The position numbers and the translations under genes were made by a program. The notes beneath the pieces are model-generated. The model searched no databases. It was not told where the DNA came from and was given only the letters and a program-made list of their open reading frames with translations. Shown here piece by piece: positions 20,609 through 54,259 of a stretch of 64,000 bases of DNA. Position 1 is the stretch's first letter; every line of letters starts with the position of its first letter. Source of the stretch: a bacterium (lineage in GTDB: Bacteria; Vulcanimicrobiota; Vulcanimicrobiia; Vulcanimicrobiales; Vulcanimicrobiaceae); assembly GCA_021832345.1 (NCBI GenBank), contig JAKBKY010000002.1:186001-250000 (forward strand). The letters run 5' to 3'.

Positions 20609-22106
20609 GACGGCGTCCTCCGGCGCAGATCTGGGAGAGTACTGCCGCTTCGCGGAGGCGGTTCCGCAGATCACCTGGATCGCCGATCGAATGGGCCGGC
20701 CGGAGTACTTCAACGCGCGGTGGTTTGAGTATACCGGTCGGTCGGAGGCGCTCTGCCTTGGCCTTGGGTGGCAGCAGCTCGTTCACCCGCACGATCTGGT
20801 TCGTATGACCGAGGCTCGGCGTCGCACCCTGGAGAGTGGCGAAGACTTCGAAGTCGAGTATCGATTACGCCGCCGGGACGGCGTCTATCGCTGGTTCTTA
20901 GCACGCTCCGTTCCCATACGCGCTGCGGACGCGAGCATCTGGAAGTGGTTTGGGACCTGCACGGATATTCACGATCAGAAGCACGCCGAGGGCGTCTTGC
21001 GTCTCTTCGCGAGTGCCGGGCGGCTCTTCGGCGAAACCTTGGATCCCGTGACCATCGCCGGTCACGTGGCCGATCTGCTGGTGCCGGAGTTTGCCGAGGC
21101 GATCGACGTGTTCATCGTCCGCGACGGCGCCTTGGAGCGTCTCGTGTCGCGCCCGTCCTCGGAGACGACGAGCGTGGTGCGTGCAGAGGCGATCGAACGC
21201 TGTATCGCGATGCGGCAGACGATGCGCATGGCCGACGGTACGCGCTTGCTGCCGCTGATCGCCCGTGGAATCTGCTTCGGAGCGCTGCGCATCGTCGTGC
21301 GCGATGAGGCCCGCTTCGCCCTCGAGGACCTGCAGGTGGGCAACGAGCTGGGCCACCGTGCCGCCGTCGCGCTGGACAATGCCCTGCGCTATCAGCGCGA
21401 GCATTGGGTCTCCGAAGAGCTACAACGTGCCATTCTCCCTCCGCGCTTGCCGAGCGTGCCCGGTGCGCGGCTGTCGTGGGCTTACGTGCCCGCCGCCAGT
21501 GAGTTGTTGGTGGGCGGCGATTGGTACGATGCGTTCGCGTTAGATGATGGCCGGATCGGCCTGTCCATCGGCGATGTGACGGGGCACGGGTTGGATGCAG
21601 CGGTGGTGATGGCGGAGATGCGCCAAGCGGTGCGCTTCGCGGCGATGGAAGGCTTCGAGCCGCAGCGTGTGCTCGATCACGCCGACCGCATGTTGCGCAG
21701 CCAACGCCCGGAGGCGATCGCGACGGCGGGTTTCGGCATCTACGATCCCACCGCGCGAACGTTGGTCTATGCGAACGCCGGTCACCCGTCGCCGCTGCTC
21801 GCGTCGGATGATGCAGAGGTGAGCGCACTCGACGTCGATGGTCTGCCCTTGGGAATGCGTAGTCTTGGCAGCGGCGCGCAGCGGGGGGTCGAGCTCGCCT
21901 CGGGGACGCTCGCGGTCTTCTATACCGACGGCTTGACCGAATACGGCCGCGATGCGCTTGGCGGCGAGATCCGCTTGCGGGCAGCCGTCGCGGCGCAGCG
22001 GCAGACGCCCGGGAAGGACTCGGCGCGTTGCATCTACGCGCGGGTCATGCCGGAGCATCCGGAGCACACCGACGACACGGCGCTGCTCACGCTCTACGTG
22101 GAGTAA
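20595..22106 (+). CDS. PAS-GAF-SpoIIE (PP2C) serine phosphatase
   Basis: A PAS domain (FAEAVPQITWIADRMGRPEY, ending in IHDQKHAE) is followed by a GAF-like region and a C-terminal SpoIIE phosphatase (SELLVGGDWYDAF, ISIGDVTGHGLDAA-type LSIGDVTGHGLDAAVVMAEM, YANAGHPSPLL, FYTDGLTEYG). Such RsbU/RsbP-like enzymes dephosphorylate anti-anti-sigma factors in stress switches. No anti-sigma gene is in the window. TTG at 20595 overlaps the peptidase stop by 14 bp; the true start is uncertain. Confidence 0.85.
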   Translation: MRSPETASSGADLGEYCRFAEAVPQITWIADRMGRPEYFNARWFEYTGRSEALCLGLGWQQLVHPHDLVRMTEARRRTLESGEDFEVEYRLRRRDGVYRWFLARSVPIRAADASIWKWFGTCTDIHDQKHAEGVLRLFASAGRLFGETLDPVTIAGHVADLLVPEFAEAIDVFIVRDGALERLVSRPSSETTSVVRAEAIERCIAMRQTMRMADGTRLLPLIARGICFGALRIVVRDEARFALEDLQVGNELGHRAAVALDNALRYQREHWVSEELQRAILPPRLPSVPGARLSWAYVPAASELLVGGDWYDAFALDDGRIGLSIGDVTGHGLDAAVVMAEMRQAVRFAAMEGFEPQRVLDHADRMLRSQRPEAIATAGFGIYDPTARTLVYANAGHPSPLLASDDAEVSALDVDGLPLGMRSLGSGAQRGVELASGTLAVFYTDGLTEYGRDALGGEIRLRAAVAAQRQTPGKDSARCIYARVMPEHPEHTDDTALLTLYVE

Positions 22107-23125
22107 CCCACGGCGCAGAGCGCGCGCTGGGTGACGAGCGCTTCTTCGAAGGTCGGCAGCGCATTGGATTCCCGGCTACCGTCGATGCGCGCGAGGAACG
22201 CATCGTAGAGTTCCATCAAGAGCGGGACGTGGTCGTTGATCGCCGCAAATCGAGCGTAGGTGGACGGCTTGCAGCCAAGTTCAGACGTCTCCTCGTCGTC
22301 GACGCTGAAGAGGCGCATGGAGGCCAGATCCGTGCCGCTGGCGATGGCCGTGCGTCCTTCTGCGTGTGCCGCAAAGGTGAGCGAACGTACCGCAGTTGTC
22401 GCATCGACGCTCACGCGCGCTACCAGACCGGAGCCATACTCCAAGAGCGCGAAGGCACCGTCGTCGACATCGCTCGTGAACGGGCCCACCTCGTCGCGCC
22501 GGTTGGGGTTGGCGGTCCGTAGCAGACCCGCCACGTGGACCGGAGGCCGTCCCGCATACCAGTTCGCCGTGTCGATGAGGTGCGAGAGCAGGGCACCGGC
22601 GATGCCCCCACCGCGGCGTCGCTCGAACCACCACCCACGCGCTCGTAGCGCACTTGCGCTCAGGCGACCGTCGAGATGGGTGATCTCGATCTGGCGCAAT
22701 GGCGTGAGGTGCCCGTTGTCGATCATCTCCTTGATCGCGGCACGCTCGGCCACCCAGCGGAACTCGTGGACGACTCCACAGATGGCCGGGCTATCCGTTG
22801 CGGCTGCACAGAGTTCTTCGGCTTGCGCCACGTTCAGCGTGAAGGGCTTTTCGCAGAGCACGTGTTTGCCGGCGGCCAAACATGCGAGCACGTCGTCGCG
22901 GTGGGCGAACGGCGGCGATGCAACCACTACCGCATCGAGCGCAACGCCGTCGAGCATCTGCGCGCATGAAGCGAAAGCATGCGGGATAGCGCGGTTGGCC
23001 GCGATCTGCGCAGCGCTGTGCGGTGAAGCCAGCGCTACGACGTCGAAACGGGGATGCGCAAGCAGAGCCGGCAGATGGGAGCTCACCCCAAAGCCGGCAC
23101 CGACGATTCCAATGCGAATGTTCAT
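22094..23125 (-). CDS. Gfo/Idh/MocA-family oxidoreductase
   Basis: The Rossmann motif GIVGAGFGVSSHLPAL starts the protein, and the catalytic-region EKP appears in HVLCEKPFTLN. These NAD(P)-dependent enzymes oxidise or reduce sugars, inositols and related alcohols. ATG at 23125 overlaps the aminotransferase TGA (ATGA). It is the last gene of the LuxE/LuxC operon and ends 13 bp inside the convergent SpoIIE-phosphatase gene. 343 aa. Confidence 0.88.
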   Translation of the reverse strand: MNIRIGIVGAGFGVSSHLPALLAHPRFDVVALASPHSAAQIAANRAIPHAFASCAQMLDGVALDAVVVASPPFAHRDDVLACLAAGKHVLCEKPFTLNVAQAEELCAAATDSPAICGVVHEFRWVAERAAIKEMIDNGHLTPLRQIEITHLDGRLSASALRARGWWFERRRGGGIAGALLSHLIDTANWYAGRPPVHVAGLLRTANPNRRDEVGPFTSDVDDGAFALLEYGSGLVARVSVDATTAVRSLTFAAHAEGRTAIASGTDLASMRLFSVDDEETSELGCKPSTYARFAAINDHVPLLMELYDAFLARIDGSRESNALPTFEEALVTQRALCAVGYST

Positions 23126-24426
23126 AAGGCCTCCGTCTGCGCGATGGCGCGTTCGAGAAGATCGATGGCTCGATCGAGTTGCCGCTCGCCGATGACCAGC
23201 GGCGGTGCGACGACAAGGACGTTCCCGGTTGGGCCGGACTGTAGGGTGATGACCCCAAGAGCGAGCGCTTGCGCGACGACCCGTGCGGCAAGGGCGCCGT
23301 TCGCCAACTCGATGCCCCACAGCAGGCCGCGTCCCCGCACCTCCCGCACGCAGGCGAGTCGGCGCAGGACCGCTAGCCGCTCACCGAGCGGCACGCCGAG
23401 CCGCTCTGCGCGCTCGACCAGCCGTCCGCGTTCGAGTTCACCGATGGTTGCGAGCGCCGCCGCCGCGCCCATGGGGTTGCCTAAGTAGGTGGAGGTATGC
23501 AGCGCTTCTCCGCTTGAGAGCGGCCAGGCATCCATAATCTTCCCTCGCGCAACGGTCGCCGAGATGGGGAAGCCGCCGCCCAGCGCCTTTCCGACGCAGA
23601 TGATGTCCGGCACGACGTCTTCGTGTTGAGCTGCGAACCACGAGCCGGTTCTCCCGAATCCAGTGTAGATCTCATCGAAGATCAGCAGCAGGTGGAGCTC
23701 GTCACAGAGTGTGCGCAGACCGGGTAGCCAACCAGGCGGCGGGACGATGCACCCGCCTCGCCCCTGGATCGGCTCGACGATCATCGCTGCGATATCGCTG
23801 CGCCCGCGCAACCGATCGCGCATCGCTGCAAGAGCGTGCGCCGCGCTCGTAGCACCCGCGCGTGGATACTCGAGCAGGAGCGTCGTATTCGGGAGCACCT
23901 CCGCGAACGGCGTGCGAAACTTCTCGATGCCGCAGAGCTCGAGCGCCCCGAGCGAAAGCCCGTGATAGCCGCCGGCGAAGGCCGCAAATGCCGGCTTGCC
24001 CGTCGCGAGGACGGCGGTCTTCATGGCGGCCTCGACGGCCTCAGAGCCCGTCGTCGAGAGGAAGGCTTTATCCAAACCCGCCGGCAGAATCTGCACCAGG
24101 CGTTCGAGAAGCCGGCTGCGAGCCTCCGTGGGATGCACGTCGCCCATCCCGTGGACAAGGCGCGACGCTTGATCGGCGATGGCCGACACGACGTACGGGT
24201 TGGCGTGGCCGACATTGGCTACGCCGAAGGCCGAGGTAAGATCGAGGTAGCGATTGCCGTCGACATCGGTGACGACGACACCCTGCGCCGACTCCCAAAA
24301 GACCGGGAAGTCGTCCGCGAGATAGGCGACGTTGCGAGACTCGTAGCGCTGGAGTCCTGCGCGCAGTTGAAGGCTCAACGGGCCGGGAATGCTCGTGCGA
24401 ATCGCTTCAACGTCGTCGGTACTCAC
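23122..24426 (-). CDS. Class III PLP-dependent aminotransferase
   Basis: The chain shows DGNRYLDLTSAFGVANVGHANP, STTGSEAVEAAMKTA (phosphate binding), LIFDEIYTGFGRTGSWFA with the PLP-contacting Asp, and GKALGGGFPISA with the Schiff-base Lys. The family transfers amino groups to aldehydes or ketones (GABA, ornithine and diamine aminotransferases). A GTG at 24426 overlaps the LuxC TGA (GTGA); an in-frame GTG at 24441 is also possible. Placed after an aldehyde-forming pair, it could make an amine. Confidence 0.9.
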   Translation of the reverse strand: MSTDDVEAIRTSIPGPLSLQLRAGLQRYESRNVAYLADDFPVFWESAQGVVVTDVDGNRYLDLTSAFGVANVGHANPYVVSAIADQASRLVHGMGDVHPTEARSRLLERLVQILPAGLDKAFLSTTGSEAVEAAMKTAVLATGKPAFAAFAGGYHGLSLGALELCGIEKFRTPFAEVLPNTTLLLEYPRAGATSAAHALAAMRDRLRGRSDIAAMIVEPIQGRGGCIVPPPGWLPGLRTLCDELHLLLIFDEIYTGFGRTGSWFAAQHEDVVPDIICVGKALGGGFPISATVARGKIMDAWPLSSGEALHTSTYLGNPMGAAAALATIGELERGRLVERAERLGVPLGERLAVLRRLACVREVRGRGLLWGIELANGALAARVVAQALALGVITLQSGPTGNVLVVAPPLVIGERQLDRAIDLLERAIAQTEAL

Positions 24427-25646
24427 GCCATCGTTACCCACTTGATGAAATCGGCTATTCGAGGACGACCGCCGTGCGTCGCGTCGAGTGGCGGCCGCTG
24501 AAGCCGGCCGAACGTTGCGACGCGATTGACCCGTGCCTGCAGCGCGATCTTCGCGATCTCGGGAGAGAGTTCCGGGAGCGCCATCGCCTCAAGCGCTAGG
24601 CCGTGCCTCCGGAGATAGGCGAGCATGTCGTCAGGGCCGTCCACCGCCCGCACCTCAAGGATTCTCCCCAGAAAGAGCGGCGGTTCGTCCATCGGCGGAT
24701 CGACCACGAGTGCCCAGCTCCCGTTCGTGCCTGCGTACACGGCTCCGCCGGCGTTGGCCGCGCGAAACGCGGCCGTGCGACGAGCCTGGGCGGCGGCCGG
24801 TGTTGGTCCCGGCGGGAACTCCACGACTGCGCGCTCGAACGCAGCAGCGAGAAGTTCGGCCATGCGCGCCGTGCTGACCGCTGCGCCGCGTTGTGCAAAG
24901 AGCGCGTGCAGACTCAAACACCCTTCGCCGTCGTAGAGCACCGCATCGCGTGCGGCGCCGTCCGCCAACACCGCTGCGGAGCGTTCATCGCGCAATGCCT
25001 CGCGCGTGATGTAGCCGACGCTCGCCATTGGGCCGAATCCTAGGAAGCGCGCCATCGGTGCGCAAGCCGCACGGATGCGCAAAAGCGCTCGGTCACCGCC
25101 AAACGCGACGACGGCATCGAACGGCTGAAGGTCGTACACTTGCGTATCGGAGTCCCACGTGAGCGCTTGGGCGGCGTCACGCATCTCGCCGAGCTCTTGG
25201 GCCAAGGTGTCGCAGAATGCGCCCAACAGTCCATCCGCGCGATCCTTCACCACGATGTCACACTTGGCGAGGAGCGCAAAGATCGCGGGCAGCAACGCGA
25301 CGCCGATGGTCGTGCGGCTACTGATGATGCAGACGCGGCCGATGGGGCTCGCATGGGTCGGCGACGAACCGGGTCGTTCAACGAAGCCGTCAAGGACGTC
25401 GAGGCCTCCGAGCTCGCGGGTGACGACGCGTGCCAGCGCGCCGGTGTCGATCTCGTCGAAGAGGGCATCCAGGGCATACTCGACGACGGGCAACGCATAT
25501 CCGGTGCGCGCCGCCAGCCGATCGATCGTGCGCACGCGCGGTGCGAAGTCCTCGTTTCGCCAGCGTTGCGCCGCATCGCCGATCGCGGCGAGAATGCGGC
25601 GTGCCGGGATCTGTGAGAGAGCCGTTACGCCGTGCCGGTCAGACAC
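24423..25646 (-). CDS. LuxC-like acyl-CoA/acyl-protein reductase
   Basis: The 407-aa protein matches the LuxC acyl reductase family (PF05893 type): SPIGRVCIISSRTTIGVALLP, QPFDAVVAFGGDRALLRIR, and the probable acyl-accepting Cys in YDGEGCLSLHALFAQRG near residue 243. The family reduces activated fatty acids to aldehydes with NADPH. GTG at 25646 overlaps the LuxE stop by 8 bp. No luciferase gene (luxAB) is nearby, so a role in light emission is unlikely here. Confidence 0.85.
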   Translation of the reverse strand: MSDRHGVTALSQIPARRILAAIGDAAQRWRNEDFAPRVRTIDRLAARTGYALPVVEYALDALFDEIDTGALARVVTRELGGLDVLDGFVERPGSSPTHASPIGRVCIISSRTTIGVALLPAIFALLAKCDIVVKDRADGLLGAFCDTLAQELGEMRDAAQALTWDSDTQVYDLQPFDAVVAFGGDRALLRIRAACAPMARFLGFGPMASVGYITREALRDERSAAVLADGAARDAVLYDGEGCLSLHALFAQRGAAVSTARMAELLAAAFERAVVEFPPGPTPAAAQARRTAAFRAANAGGAVYAGTNGSWALVVDPPMDEPPLFLGRILEVRAVDGPDDMLAYLRRHGLALEAMALPELSPEIAKIALQARVNRVATFGRLQRPPLDATHGGRPRIADFIKWVTMA

Positions 25647-26733
25647 CGTGGCGTGCACGCAGGGTTTGCGCATCGAGGGAGCAGCCCCGCGGCTCACTAC
25701 CCTCCTGCCGTCCGTGCAAGAGGATTCCATCTTGGGTCTCTACCCCCAGATCGTCGCTGGCGATAGCCACGCACGACGAACGATTGGCCAGATCCACATG
25801 AACGAGCGTACCGAGCGTTCCCGGCGCCAAGCGCCGGTCGTTCTCGCCGATGGCGTAGGCCCGCAGCCACGGCGGCGCACGTTTGACGCGCGTGGCTACG
25901 TCGTCGTACCACTGCGAGGTGAGTTCGGTCATCCCGTACTCGGCGATAATGCGGTTGGGCGGGATGCCGAGTCGCTGCGTGAGGCCGGCGTAGAGTTGCT
26001 CGCGGTCGATTACGCGACTGCGCCCCTTGAATCCGCCGGTCTCCATCACGCGCGATCCGGCCGGAAGTTCGAGGTGAACTCCACGTTCGGCGACGAGGTC
26101 AAGGAGCGCCACGAAGGCGAACGCCGTGCCCGGAATACAGACGGGTTGCCGGTCACGGATCGCCTCTTGAGCGTCGGCCAGGAATGCTTCGATGAAGAAG
26201 TCGTCGCCGCGCAGATACCACCCGGTCGCCGCGTCGCCGCGCTCCGCGCAGATGCGGCCAAGCATGTATCCAAGCGAGGAATCGGGACGATCCGAGGGGT
26301 TGGGAACGAGATTGAGGTAACGCAGCCGCGCTCCGTCGGAGAGCACGAAACGGTCGAATCCGGCCAGGAGCGCCGCGTCGTAGAGCGTGCGCGTCTCCAT
26401 GTAGTGCCGGCCGCCGATGCCCGAAGTCGTTCCGCTCGTCACGAAGGCGAGCGCCGCGAGGGTTGGGTCGAACGTTGCCAGCGTGGTCTCTCGGTACGCC
26501 GATGTGGGGACGGGCGGGATGCGATCCCACGACGGCGGCATGGCCTCAAGCGTGACGCCCAGGCTCGCGCAGTAGCGAGCGTAGGGTGCGTTGTAACGTA
26601 GCTGGTGCGCGAAGATCGCGAGCGCCAGTTCGTCGAACTCGGCATCCGTGAGGGCGGTGCCCGCCATGTGCCAACGCCCGATGACCCGTAGGATCTCCGC
26701 ATCGAGAGCTTGGGCCTGCCGTTGGTAACTCAT
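25639..26733 (-). CDS. LuxE-like acyl-protein synthetase
   Basis: The 364-aa chain has the adenylate-forming signatures of LuxE/PaaK relatives: AFVTSGTTSGIGGRHY (P-loop-like), VMETGGFKGRSR and IAEYGMTELTSQWYDD. LuxE activates a fatty acid as acyl-AMP and holds it for LuxC. ATG at 26733 overlaps the CoA-binding gene stop (ATGA). The acid substrate is unknown; the pair with LuxC strongly implies acid-to-aldehyde reduction. Confidence 0.85.
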   Translation of the reverse strand: MSYQRQAQALDAEILRVIGRWHMAGTALTDAEFDELALAIFAHQLRYNAPYARYCASLGVTLEAMPPSWDRIPPVPTSAYRETTLATFDPTLAALAFVTSGTTSGIGGRHYMETRTLYDAALLAGFDRFVLSDGARLRYLNLVPNPSDRPDSSLGYMLGRICAERGDAATGWYLRGDDFFIEAFLADAQEAIRDRQPVCIPGTAFAFVALLDLVAERGVHLELPAGSRVMETGGFKGRSRVIDREQLYAGLTQRLGIPPNRIIAEYGMTELTSQWYDDVATRVKRAPPWLRAYAIGENDRRLAPGTLGTLVHVDLANRSSCVAIASDDLGVETQDGILLHGRQEGSEPRGCSLDAQTLRARHGV

Positions 26734-27146
26734 CGACGCTCCGACTCCACCTTGATGCAGCGATCGACGACGACATCGAGCCCAGCTTCGTCGGCCAGGC
26801 GAATGGCCGCGTCGTTGATCACGCCGTATTGAAACCAGATCGCGCGCGCGCCGACGGCGATCGCCTCGCGGGTGAGCTCCAGGACCTCGCTTGGCTTCCG
26901 AAAGACATCGACGATGTCCGGCGCGCCGCGCTCCTGTGCGTAGGCGGTCAGGCTGCCGTAGGCTTTGATGCCGTCGAGCTGCGTCATCGCCGGATTGATC
27001 GGTGTCACTTCGAAGCGACCCTGTGTGCGCAGGTAGGAGAAGACGGTGGAACTCGGGCGCACGGGGTTCTTGGATGCGCCCACCAAGGCGACCGTGCGAC
27101 TGCGCTTCAGCAACGCTCGACACTGCCTGGCGGTGGTGAGAATCAT
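26730..27146 (-). CDS. CoA-binding domain protein (YccU-like)
   Basis: The 138-aa single-domain protein has the CoA_binding_2 pattern: TVALVGASKNPVRPSSTVFSYL, VTPINPAM, and IWFQYGVINDAAIRLADEAG followed by DRCIKVE. It has the nucleotide-binding fold of succinyl-CoA synthetase alpha without catalytic parts. Its ATG overlaps the stop of the truncated PLP frame upstream and its stop overlaps the LuxE start. It may bind CoA or acyl-CoA for the reductase pair, which is inference. Confidence 0.85.
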   Translation of the reverse strand: MILTTARQCRALLKRSRTVALVGASKNPVRPSSTVFSYLRTQGRFEVTPINPAMTQLDGIKAYGSLTAYAQERGAPDIVDVFRKPSEVLELTREAIAVGARAIWFQYGVINDAAIRLADEAGLDVVVDRCIKVESERR

Positions 27147-27316
27147 GTCGGCACCTGCACTGCCGCTGCGGTACGCAGGCCCCCTTCGAGGCCGGCCATG
27201 CGTTCTTCGACGTGTGCGGTTTGGAAGATCGGGGCCGCGTGCGAGCCGGTGGCGGGGCCGGGCGGCGTCCCCGCGTGGATGGCGCGGGGGGAGAGGCCCA
27301 AGGTGTGATCCTGCAT
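27143..27316 (-). pseudogene. Truncated Cys/Met-metabolism PLP enzyme remnant
   Basis: The 57-aa frame from ATG 27316 reads LGLSPRAIHAGTPPGPAT then APIFQTAH, the N-terminus of cystathionine gamma-synthase/O-acetylhomoserine sulfhydrylase proteins. It then jumps to EERMAGLEGG, which in intact relatives lies about 30 residues later, and stops soon after. An internal deletion and loss of the catalytic body are the simplest reading. It keeps an ATGA overlap with the next gene and may survive as a coupled leader frame. Confidence 0.65.
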
Positions 27317-52779: not shown

Positions 52780-52900
52780 TCATTCGTTGCTTTGCACGAC
52801 GCTGGTTTTAGTGTCTCTTCGGGATGAAGATGATGGTGCTGAGCTGATGAACTACTCCACCTAACGCGATGCGTACAGGGTGGAGTTTCGTGTTGCTCAC
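52780..52900 (-). ncRNA. Candidate TnpB omega RNA / right end
   Basis: On the minus strand, sequence after the tnpB stop holds an ACTCCACC/GGTGGAGT 8-bp stem (52854-52861 and 52879-52886) and an unpaired stretch toward the tRNA-Arg end. In IS605 systems the guide RNA overlaps the tnpB 3' end and reads into the flank. Ends here are estimates. Confidence 0.35.
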
Positions 52901-54135
52901 GCGGATTGCGCGAGGCACCCGGTCGGTTCCCGGCCGGCGATGGTTCGGTATGCTGCCAGGAGCATACAAACAGACCACCAGAGATTCACACGCGCAGCGT
53001 TCTGATCGCGCGAGAGGATTAAGCCGCAGGCGCAAATGTGCATCCGTTCGGAGAGCGCTTTCTTGCGCTGTTTCCAACAGCCGGAGCACGTCTGGCTTGG
53101 CTTGACCTTACGCGATGGAACCTCGATGAACGCAATACCAGCCTCTGCCGCTTTGTATCGAATCATATCGAGAGATTTGCGTGGAGCGGTGGCGAGAATC
53201 TCACGATTCAAGCCTGCCTTTTGGGCGACATTGCGCCCAGGGGATTCGATTGTTCCTTTCGCCGATCGGGTCATGTTCTTGATCGCGAGCGTCTCGGTGG
53301 CGATCAGCCACGACTGTGCGACGATCTTTGCCGATTGTTGGCGCAGGAAGTCCAACCGCTTGGCGGCGGTCTTGCGATGGATCGCGGCGACGGGGAGGCG
53401 AGCCTTCGCGCGGTTCTTCGAGCGCTTGGCCTTGCGCGCGAGGTTCTGTTGCGCGGACTCTAGCGCGGCCTGCGCCTGCCGCGTGAAGCGCGGATTCTCA
53501 ATGGCCGAAAAGGTCGCGTTTTCATGCGCGATGGTGGCAAACGTCTCAACACCCCAATCCAGACCGATCGCCTGCGTTCCGCCCGTTCGCTGCGGTCGGC
53601 ACGAAACCGAGAGCGAGGCGTACCAGCGTCCGGCCTTACGCTGGATTTCGCAGGTCTTCGCATCGCCCGGCGTACGAGCGCGACCGCGTACGGAGATCGT
53701 GCCGATGCCCGAGAGACGCAGCTTGCCGTGCCGGTTGCCGTCTCCAGGCGTGAACCGGAAGCCATCGCCGTGCGTCTTGTATCCCCAGCCGGAGAAGCGG
53801 TCGAAGGCTTTGAAACGCGGGAATCCCGGCGTCGCGCCGTTTTTGCAACGCGAGAAGAAAGCCTGAAAGGCGAGGTGCAAACGGTGCAGCGTCACCTGGG
53901 CCGACTGCGCGTTCAGTGCAGCGTAACGTTCGTCAGCGGCGCGCAACTCGGTAAGATCGCGCGACTGGTCGTATGCTGACAGGCTCTTACGTTGCAGCCT
54001 CCAGGCGGCGATCCGCTGTTCGAGTGCCGCGTTATAGAGCCGCTGGTGCAGGCCGAGCATATCCAAGAGTGCCGCTTCCTGCGAGCGCGAGGGATAGAGA
54101 CGATAGACGACCTTGCGCGAGACGGCGGACTCCAC
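52897..54135 (-). CDS. tnpB: TnpB RNA-guided nuclease
   Basis: The RuvC-type triad is present: Asp in IGLDWGVETFATI, Glu in LIATETLAIKNM and Asp in LSRDQNAARVN. The zinc ribbon reads QTCSGCWKQ... ICACG. The N-terminal YRLYPSRSQEAAL and helix-turn-helix-like region are family-typical. TnpB cuts DNA at a site set by its omega RNA. GTG 54135 starts MESAVSRKVVYRLYP; 412 aa looks intact. Confidence 0.9.
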   Translation of the reverse strand: MESAVSRKVVYRLYPSRSQEAALLDMLGLHQRLYNAALEQRIAAWRLQRKSLSAYDQSRDLTELRAADERYAALNAQSAQVTLHRLHLAFQAFFSRCKNGATPGFPRFKAFDRFSGWGYKTHGDGFRFTPGDGNRHGKLRLSGIGTISVRGRARTPGDAKTCEIQRKAGRWYASLSVSCRPQRTGGTQAIGLDWGVETFATIAHENATFSAIENPRFTRQAQAALESAQQNLARKAKRSKNRAKARLPVAAIHRKTAAKRLDFLRQQSAKIVAQSWLIATETLAIKNMTRSAKGTIESPGRNVAQKAGLNREILATAPRKSLDMIRYKAAEAGIAFIEVPSRKVKPSQTCSGCWKQRKKALSERMHICACGLILSRDQNAARVNLWWSVCMLLAAYRTIAGREPTGCLAQSA

Positions 54136-54153
54136 ATTCTCAGCATACCAGGC

Positions 54154-54179
54154 CCGAGTGCCAACACGGTGGCATTCGG
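54154..54179. repeat. Subterminal hairpin upstream of tnpB (left end)
   Basis: CCGAGTGCCA and TGGCATTCGG pair over 10 bp with one G-T pair and a 6-nt loop, 19 bp before the tnpB start. Such a hairpin is typical of IS200/IS605 left ends. Confidence 0.5.
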
Positions 54180-54259
54180 TGAGCGCCCTGCTGGGCACTG
54201 CGGCGCTTCACCACCAGCCAACGCCGGGAGACGCCGTATGGTTGGAGCACTGCGCCGCT

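Follow-up and report, generated by a model that had tools for sequence, protein, structure and literature searches.

A 64,000-nucleotide stretch of the genome of a Vulcanimicrobiaceae bacterium (GenBank assembly GCA_021832345.1, contig JAKBKY010000002.1, positions 186,001 to 250,000; hereafter the window) carries on its minus strand an operon in which genes for a LuxE-like acyl-protein synthetase and a LuxC-like acyl reductase are followed by genes for a class III pyridoxal phosphate (PLP) enzyme and a Gfo/Idh/MocA-type oxidoreductase. On balance, and with some reserve, the operon is predicted from its sequence to encode a core, growth-linked path that reduces a free carboxylic acid to the aldehyde, with a primary amine as the probable next product. 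As homology suggests, LuxE would adenylate the acid with ATP and load the acyl group onto its own C-terminal Cys351, and the acyl group would then move to Cys243 of LuxC, where NAD(P)H would reduce the thioester to the aldehyde. The family of the class III enzyme and its place in the gene order point to amination of this aldehyde as the third step, and the Gfo/Idh protein would add a putative further redox step in the taxonomic order that contains the source genome. LuxE and LuxC are known chiefly from bioluminescence, as the source of the luciferase aldehyde. Here the pair is near-universal in a non-luminous class and is coupled to an apparently new class III subfamily that lacks the residues by which such enzymes usually handle glutamate. 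Should the acid and the amine be identified, the operon would show the acyl-cysteine relay at work in core metabolism and offer a route from acid to amine that is independent of coenzyme A (CoA) and of a carrier.

The LuxE-like gene (25639–26733, minus strand, as are all genes of the operon) encodes a synthetase with predicted ATP-dependent acid activation and self-acylation. The product matches PF04443 at 48.0 bits, above the cut-off of 24.9 (E = 1e-12), and the LuxE of structure 7xc6 at E = 4e-11. Alignment of 32 sequences identified as invariant the SGTT motif, EYGMTE (E265, G267, M268 and E270), D328, R342 and C351 within RGCS. The codon of Cys351 is located at 25681–25683, in a C-terminal RGCSL, and this residue is predicted to be the acyl-carrying cysteine; the acyl carrier of the luminous LuxE is likewise C-terminal, at Cys364 (PMC8301110). 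The next gene, for LuxC (24423–25646), is read from a GTG start, with longer in-frame starts possible, and its product matches PF05893 at 120.7 bits against a cut-off of 21 (E = 9e-35) and the LuxC of 7xc6, the only solved-structure relative found for either protein, at E = 2e-5. Cys243 (codon 24918–24920), the predicted acylated nucleophile, lies in YDGEGCLSLH, which fits the YDxxxCxS motif; it is invariant in all 32 sequences and aligns with Cys286 in YDQQACFSTQ of the luminous LuxC. In the luminous relay, the acid is converted to acyl-AMP, then to acyl-Cys on LuxE, then to acyl-Cys on LuxC and finally to the aldehyde (PMC8301110). Because the acyl cysteines match and the motifs are conserved, this chemistry may be transferred to the present pair with fair confidence. 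An earlier note, made from the window alone, had proposed the same acid-to-aldehyde step while allowing that the LuxC cysteine region or the LuxE motif might prove inactive; the step is borne out by the acyl cysteine of each protein and by the adenylation motifs of LuxE, and the invariance of these residues in 32 homologues of each protein speaks against inactivity.

The source genome is composed of 11 contigs (2.34 Mb, 98% complete). Family profile searches covered all of it, unlike searches with Escherichia coli queries, whose negatives hold for the 1.99 Mb (85%) that was read directly, in stretches. No match to PF00296, the luciferase family, was found in the whole genome, which extends the earlier observation that no luxAB lies near the operon and leaves no luciferase gene elsewhere; without luxAB, the operon does not form a lux bioluminescence system. 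It shares with the luminous LuxC-LuxE of 7xc6 both protein families, the acyl-cysteine relay and the use of ATP and reduced nicotinamide, and differs from it in the lack of LuxD, LuxA and LuxB, in the aminotransferase and Gfo/Idh genes downstream and in its non-luminous hosts. Both proteins also fall far below the long-chain equivalog profiles, LuxE with 41 of 550 bits for NF052244 and LuxC with 43.5 of 750 bits for NF052251. The LuxE of the window is approximately 20% identical to luminous LuxE and 29–34% identical to the LuxE of clusters in which LuxE and LuxC occur with a short-chain dehydrogenase/reductase (SDR). In the LuxE tree, the class groups with these LuxE-LuxC-SDR clusters (support 97/98), and the luminous fragment and the LuxE of LuxC-PaaK clusters stand opposite; the exact place of the luminous LuxE is unsure because its branch is long. 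Since the grouping is with non-luminous triads, conversion of an acid to an aldehyde is a well-supported prediction for this pair.

The LuxE-LuxC-SDR clusters, which are plasmid-borne and occur in Pantoea, Azospirillum, Lactiplantibacillus and Niallia, contain the closest LuxE found outside the class (29–37% identity). As in the window, LuxE and LuxC are accompanied by a single carbonyl-acting enzyme, with the SDR, predicted to reduce the aldehyde to an alcohol, in the position of the aminotransferase. Unlike the window operon, these clusters often include transporters, lack Gfo/Idh and are plasmid accessories rather than part of a class-wide core. An ABC (ATP-binding cassette) transporter is encoded between LuxC and the reductase in Azospirillum, and two Firmicute triads adjoin a gene for an NCS2-type permease; such transporters suggest, but do not show, that small acids are the substrates. 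The occurrence of plasmid LuxE-LuxC clusters in unrelated bacteria is apparently that of a mobile carboxylate-reduction module. Plasmid loci with LuxE-LuxC and an SDR were recorded at L210:8727-12074, L211:8751-14592, L212:1624-6321 and L215:5667-10370, three of which directly adjoin a transporter gene. Within the same phylum, other families encode LuxE beside a LuxC-PaaK fusion. These clusters also place LuxE and LuxC domains next to each other, but their LuxC is fused to an AMP-binding domain, their LuxE belongs to another clade and no class III aminotransferase of this kind is found beside them. LuxC-PaaK-like fusions adjoining a separate LuxE are located at L044:728-3352 and L046:9104-11761.

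These relationships bear on chain length. A long-chain fatty amine or amino-alcohol, which would be a special case of the acid-to-amine path, is possible but doubtful as the product. Myristate is the best substrate of the luminous LuxE and LuxC (PMC9646698), the dominant fatty acids of the cultured relative Vulcanimicrobium are iso-C14:0 and 3-hydroxy iso-acids (PMC9758169), and very few genomes of the class have genes of the PgsA/PssA family. On the other side, the low identity to luminous LuxE, the grouping with clusters of which some lie near small-molecule transporter genes and the lack of a dedicated LuxD-like thioesterase in the operon argue against a fatty substrate; where the earlier note had listed a fatty product, the surroundings of the LuxE most closely related beyond the class hint at small acids.

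The distribution of the genes was followed through 149 genomes of the phylum, 117 from the same class and 32 others. LuxE was found in 111 of the 117 class genomes with an alignment query and LuxC in 100 with a single query, although E-values from a single sequence understate presence in a divergent third family (f3). In the genomes of the phylum outside the class, LuxE gave only weak matches (E no better than 3e-10). The source genome contains one LuxC above the family cut-off. Both genes were placed in 97 genomes; according to the coordinates, LuxC directly follows LuxE on the same strand in 74 of these, lies within 5 kb of it in 11 more and is unlinked in the other 12, all of genus g5. Some genomes of family f1 have a wide gap between LuxE and LuxC; in three of them, a further enzyme in the intervening 1.3 kb or so was considered and rejected, as the gene there is lipoprotein-like and on the opposite strand. 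Neighbourhoods of 20 kb exhibit the order LuxE, LuxC, aminotransferase, Gfo/Idh in two families (f1 and f2) of the taxonomic order of the source genome; in f3, the first three genes are followed by a gene for a major facilitator superfamily transporter. From these three families it follows that the conserved unit is the LuxE-LuxC-aminotransferase trio, with Gfo/Idh added in one taxonomic order only. The gene for a CoA-binding protein upstream of LuxE is not beside LuxE in f2, in f3 and in several f1 lineages, and it and the PLP remnant at the head of the operon are optional neighbours, outside the pathway core. The six-gene unit of the earlier note is thus narrowed to the trio with its Gfo/Idh partner, and the gene order in related genomes proved to be kept rather than scattered, save in g5, where LuxE is unlinked but retained.

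In g5, LuxE is unlinked from the LuxC-aminotransferase-Gfo/Idh genes and is found directly downstream of rpoA-rplQ, both named by sequence, on the same strand at seven of eight loci (L217–L221, L223 and L224); the eighth ends at a contig edge. This position suggests a growth-coupled role with expression that follows growth, and together with the near-universal presence in the class it points to housekeeping. The recurrence of the gene order in relatives indicates that the cluster did not arise by chance. An accidental or decaying set of genes that share no function is exceedingly improbable: the first gene is a deletion relic, and LeuCD, CinA and subtilase vary as neighbours, but conservation throughout the class, invariant catalytic residues and an order kept across three families all argue against decay. 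Beyond the phylum, one genome scan of the whole collection with a single query sequence returned only a Selenomonas contig, which was rejected as a relative, the LuxC match being spurious and the aminotransferase ordinary. Literature searches found no description of a LuxE-LuxC-aminotransferase operon and returned flagellin-glycosylation clusters and lux reporters.

The class III enzyme (23122–24441) is predicted to be an aldehyde transaminase of a new subfamily. It matches PF00202 at 354.6 bits (E = 8e-106), and Lys285 (codon 23587–23589), which aligns with K268 of E. coli GabT and is predicted to form the Schiff base with PLP, is invariant in 34 aminotransferases. The operon copies from three families of the class fall together in a single clade (support 99/99), separate from those other class III enzymes of the genome that the tree included. 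The step from aldehyde to amine is plausible in view of the fold, the PLP lysine and the gene order, and is weaker than the step from acid to aldehyde. The Gfo/Idh protein (22094–23125), a predicted NAD(P)-dependent accessory, matches PF01408 (E = 2e-26) and PF22725 and retains the lysine of its EKP motif in 29 of 31 sequences.

Several observations weigh against the path to an amine. In comparison with E. coli GabT and PatA, the class III enzyme has an invariant L162 in place of R141. An invariant arginine, Arg228 (codon 23758–23760, 34 of 34 sequences), replaces the gateway glutamate, which is E211 in GabT and also a glutamate in PatA; R398 of GabT is replaced by S, T, A or V at position 410 and Q242 by an aromatic residue. 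The Glu-Arg pair and the substrate arginine or lysine that mark 4-aminobutyrate aminotransferase, ornithine aminotransferase and PatA are therefore both missing. In the PatA structure, the pair was assigned to the binding of 2-oxoglutarate and the arginine or lysine to the carboxylate of the substrate (PMC4244111), which puts the usual half-reaction with glutamate in doubt and makes it probable that a substrate with an acid group is not handled in the customary manner. The proposal of an aldehyde-to-amine step in the earlier note accordingly keeps the fold and the PLP lysine on its side and loses these residues. In the two f3 loci that were read, Gfo/Idh does not adjoin the trio, and the polar lipids of Vulcanimicrobium were not reported as aminolipids (PMC9758169).

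The same residues raise the alternative that the PLP enzyme is not a transaminase and has mutase, lyase, racemase or decarboxylase activity towards an aldehyde-derived compound, the acid-to-aldehyde step being kept. In the same alignment, the pair is likewise missing from class III enzymes such as the aminomutase HemL and BioA, whose donor is S-adenosylmethionine, and the enzyme of the operon has also lost the arginine for the substrate carboxylate. However, the sequence is clearly nearer to PatA, GabT, BioA and ArgD-type transaminases than to HemL, and its place after an aldehyde-forming pair, where other clusters have the SDR, suits amination. A non-transaminase is thus regarded as unlikely.

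For an acid-to-amine path, the closest proven logic is that of TamA and TamH, in which a fatty acid is converted through a thioester and an aldehyde to an amine by a class III transaminase (PMC9594044). Acid activation, reduction of a thioester to the aldehyde and a class III transaminase are common to both systems. The Tam system differs in its class I adenylation domain and acyl carrier protein, in the fusion of its AAR-type reductase with the transaminase, in the use of L-Glu and in its specialised natural product; in the window, LuxE, LuxC and the aminotransferase are separate genes, and the TamA/TamH architecture is not present.

ArgB-ArgC-ArgD and LysZ-LysY-LysJ likewise activate an acid, reduce it to a semialdehyde and aminate it with a class III aminotransferase, by means of a kinase and a semialdehyde dehydrogenase and with amino-acid substrates. 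By this analogy, LuxE and LuxC could reduce a side-chain acid in an amino-acid or diamine pathway for the aminotransferase to act upon. The shared logic of kinase or ligase, reductase and class III aminotransferase would fit, as would the finding that ProA is not found in the genome (neither proB nor proA was found with E. coli queries in the 85% read). Against this, genes of ArgB, ArgC and ArgD type are present separately, as are HemA and HemL, and the PLP enzyme has lost the arginine for the substrate carboxylate. A RocD-type ornithine aminotransferase (C3:293621-294760; TIGR01885, 508 bits, above the cut-off) may moreover supply proline from ornithine without ProA, and its presence leaves no ProBA gap to fill. 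Substitution of LuxE-LuxC for ProBA was rejected on this ground, and substitution for ArgC/ArgD or HemA on the presence of those genes. An amino-acid or diamine role is therefore improbable. A second glutamate-1-semialdehyde aminomutase-like enzyme is encoded besides HemL (G000:C7:68709-69671; L174:8553-9908), with a weaker resemblance to GntE.

For the acid-to-amine path, the leading guess places the product in the cell envelope or among the membrane lipids. No CDP-alcohol phosphatidyltransferase (PF01066, the family of PgsA and PssA) was found in the genome by profile search, although the family is present in 14 of 14 control genomes, and a motif search of the 85% read agrees. A PF01066 match occurs in only 5 of the 117 class genomes, compared with 21 of the 32 others in the phylum. 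PLD-family matches are unlike PssA or cardiolipin synthase, and pssA, psd and clsA were not found with E. coli queries in the 85% read. Genes for CdsA (G000:C11:180689-181462), PlsX, PlsY and Lgt (L131:8626-9729) are present. Lgt normally uses phosphatidylglycerol. Its presence speaks against a membrane free of phospholipids, so the absence of PF01066 may reflect membrane lipids of an unusual kind or a transferase that escaped recognition. The polar lipids of Vulcanimicrobium, namely one polar lipid, four glycolipids and seven lipids, were all reported as unidentified (PMC9758169). That the operon supplies the amine of a lipid, as yet undescribed, which replaces phosphatidylethanolamine and phosphatidylglycerol in the membrane or envelope is quite unlikely as a specific proposal. 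The absence of PF01066 and the presence of the operon are one co-occurrence at the level of the class, which proves nothing, and a lipid role is attractive but unproven. If true, it would make LuxE-LuxC essential housekeeping and not an accessory of light organs or plasmids, and the scarcity of PgsA and PssA in the class makes membrane chemistry a directly testable question. A second BioF-like enzyme was considered as a serine palmitoyltransferase and rejected; a Tdh-like dehydrogenase adjoins it and it reads as a 2-amino-3-ketobutyrate ligase, which leaves no link to sphingolipids.

All six overlapping frames of the earlier note are present at 22094–27316, and the families of all but the first are borne out by Pfam matches. 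The junctions, with ORF (open reading frame) starts predicted by overlap, span 4–19 bases and read, in the direction of transcription, as ATGA, ATGA, an 8-base GTGTCTGA overlap, GTGA (19 bases with the upstream GTG) and ATGA, so that a 4-base overlap is readable at every junction except that between LuxE and LuxC. Scans for promoters and terminators at the operon gave nothing exceeding chance. The CoA-binding protein (26730–27146), a variable neighbour, matches CoA_binding_2 (PF13380, E = 4e-34). The first ORF (27143–27316) is what a deletion has left of an O-acetylhomoserine sulfhydrylase-type gene, its N-terminus matching PRK05994 (E = 9e-5). It keeps approximately the first 28 and the last 10 codons of the gene of relatives, with the middle gone; the full-length counterpart, of the Cys/Met-PLP type, is mostly approximately 415–470 amino acids long. 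It is thus a remnant, as the earlier note had named it, and not a core member. The 85% of the genome that was read yielded no clear full-length copy of an O-acetylhomoserine sulfhydrylase gene. Elsewhere in the window, an IS605-kind TnpB/OrfB (PF01385, PF07282 and PF12323) is encoded at 52897–54198, just past a tRNA-Ser/tRNA-Arg pair.

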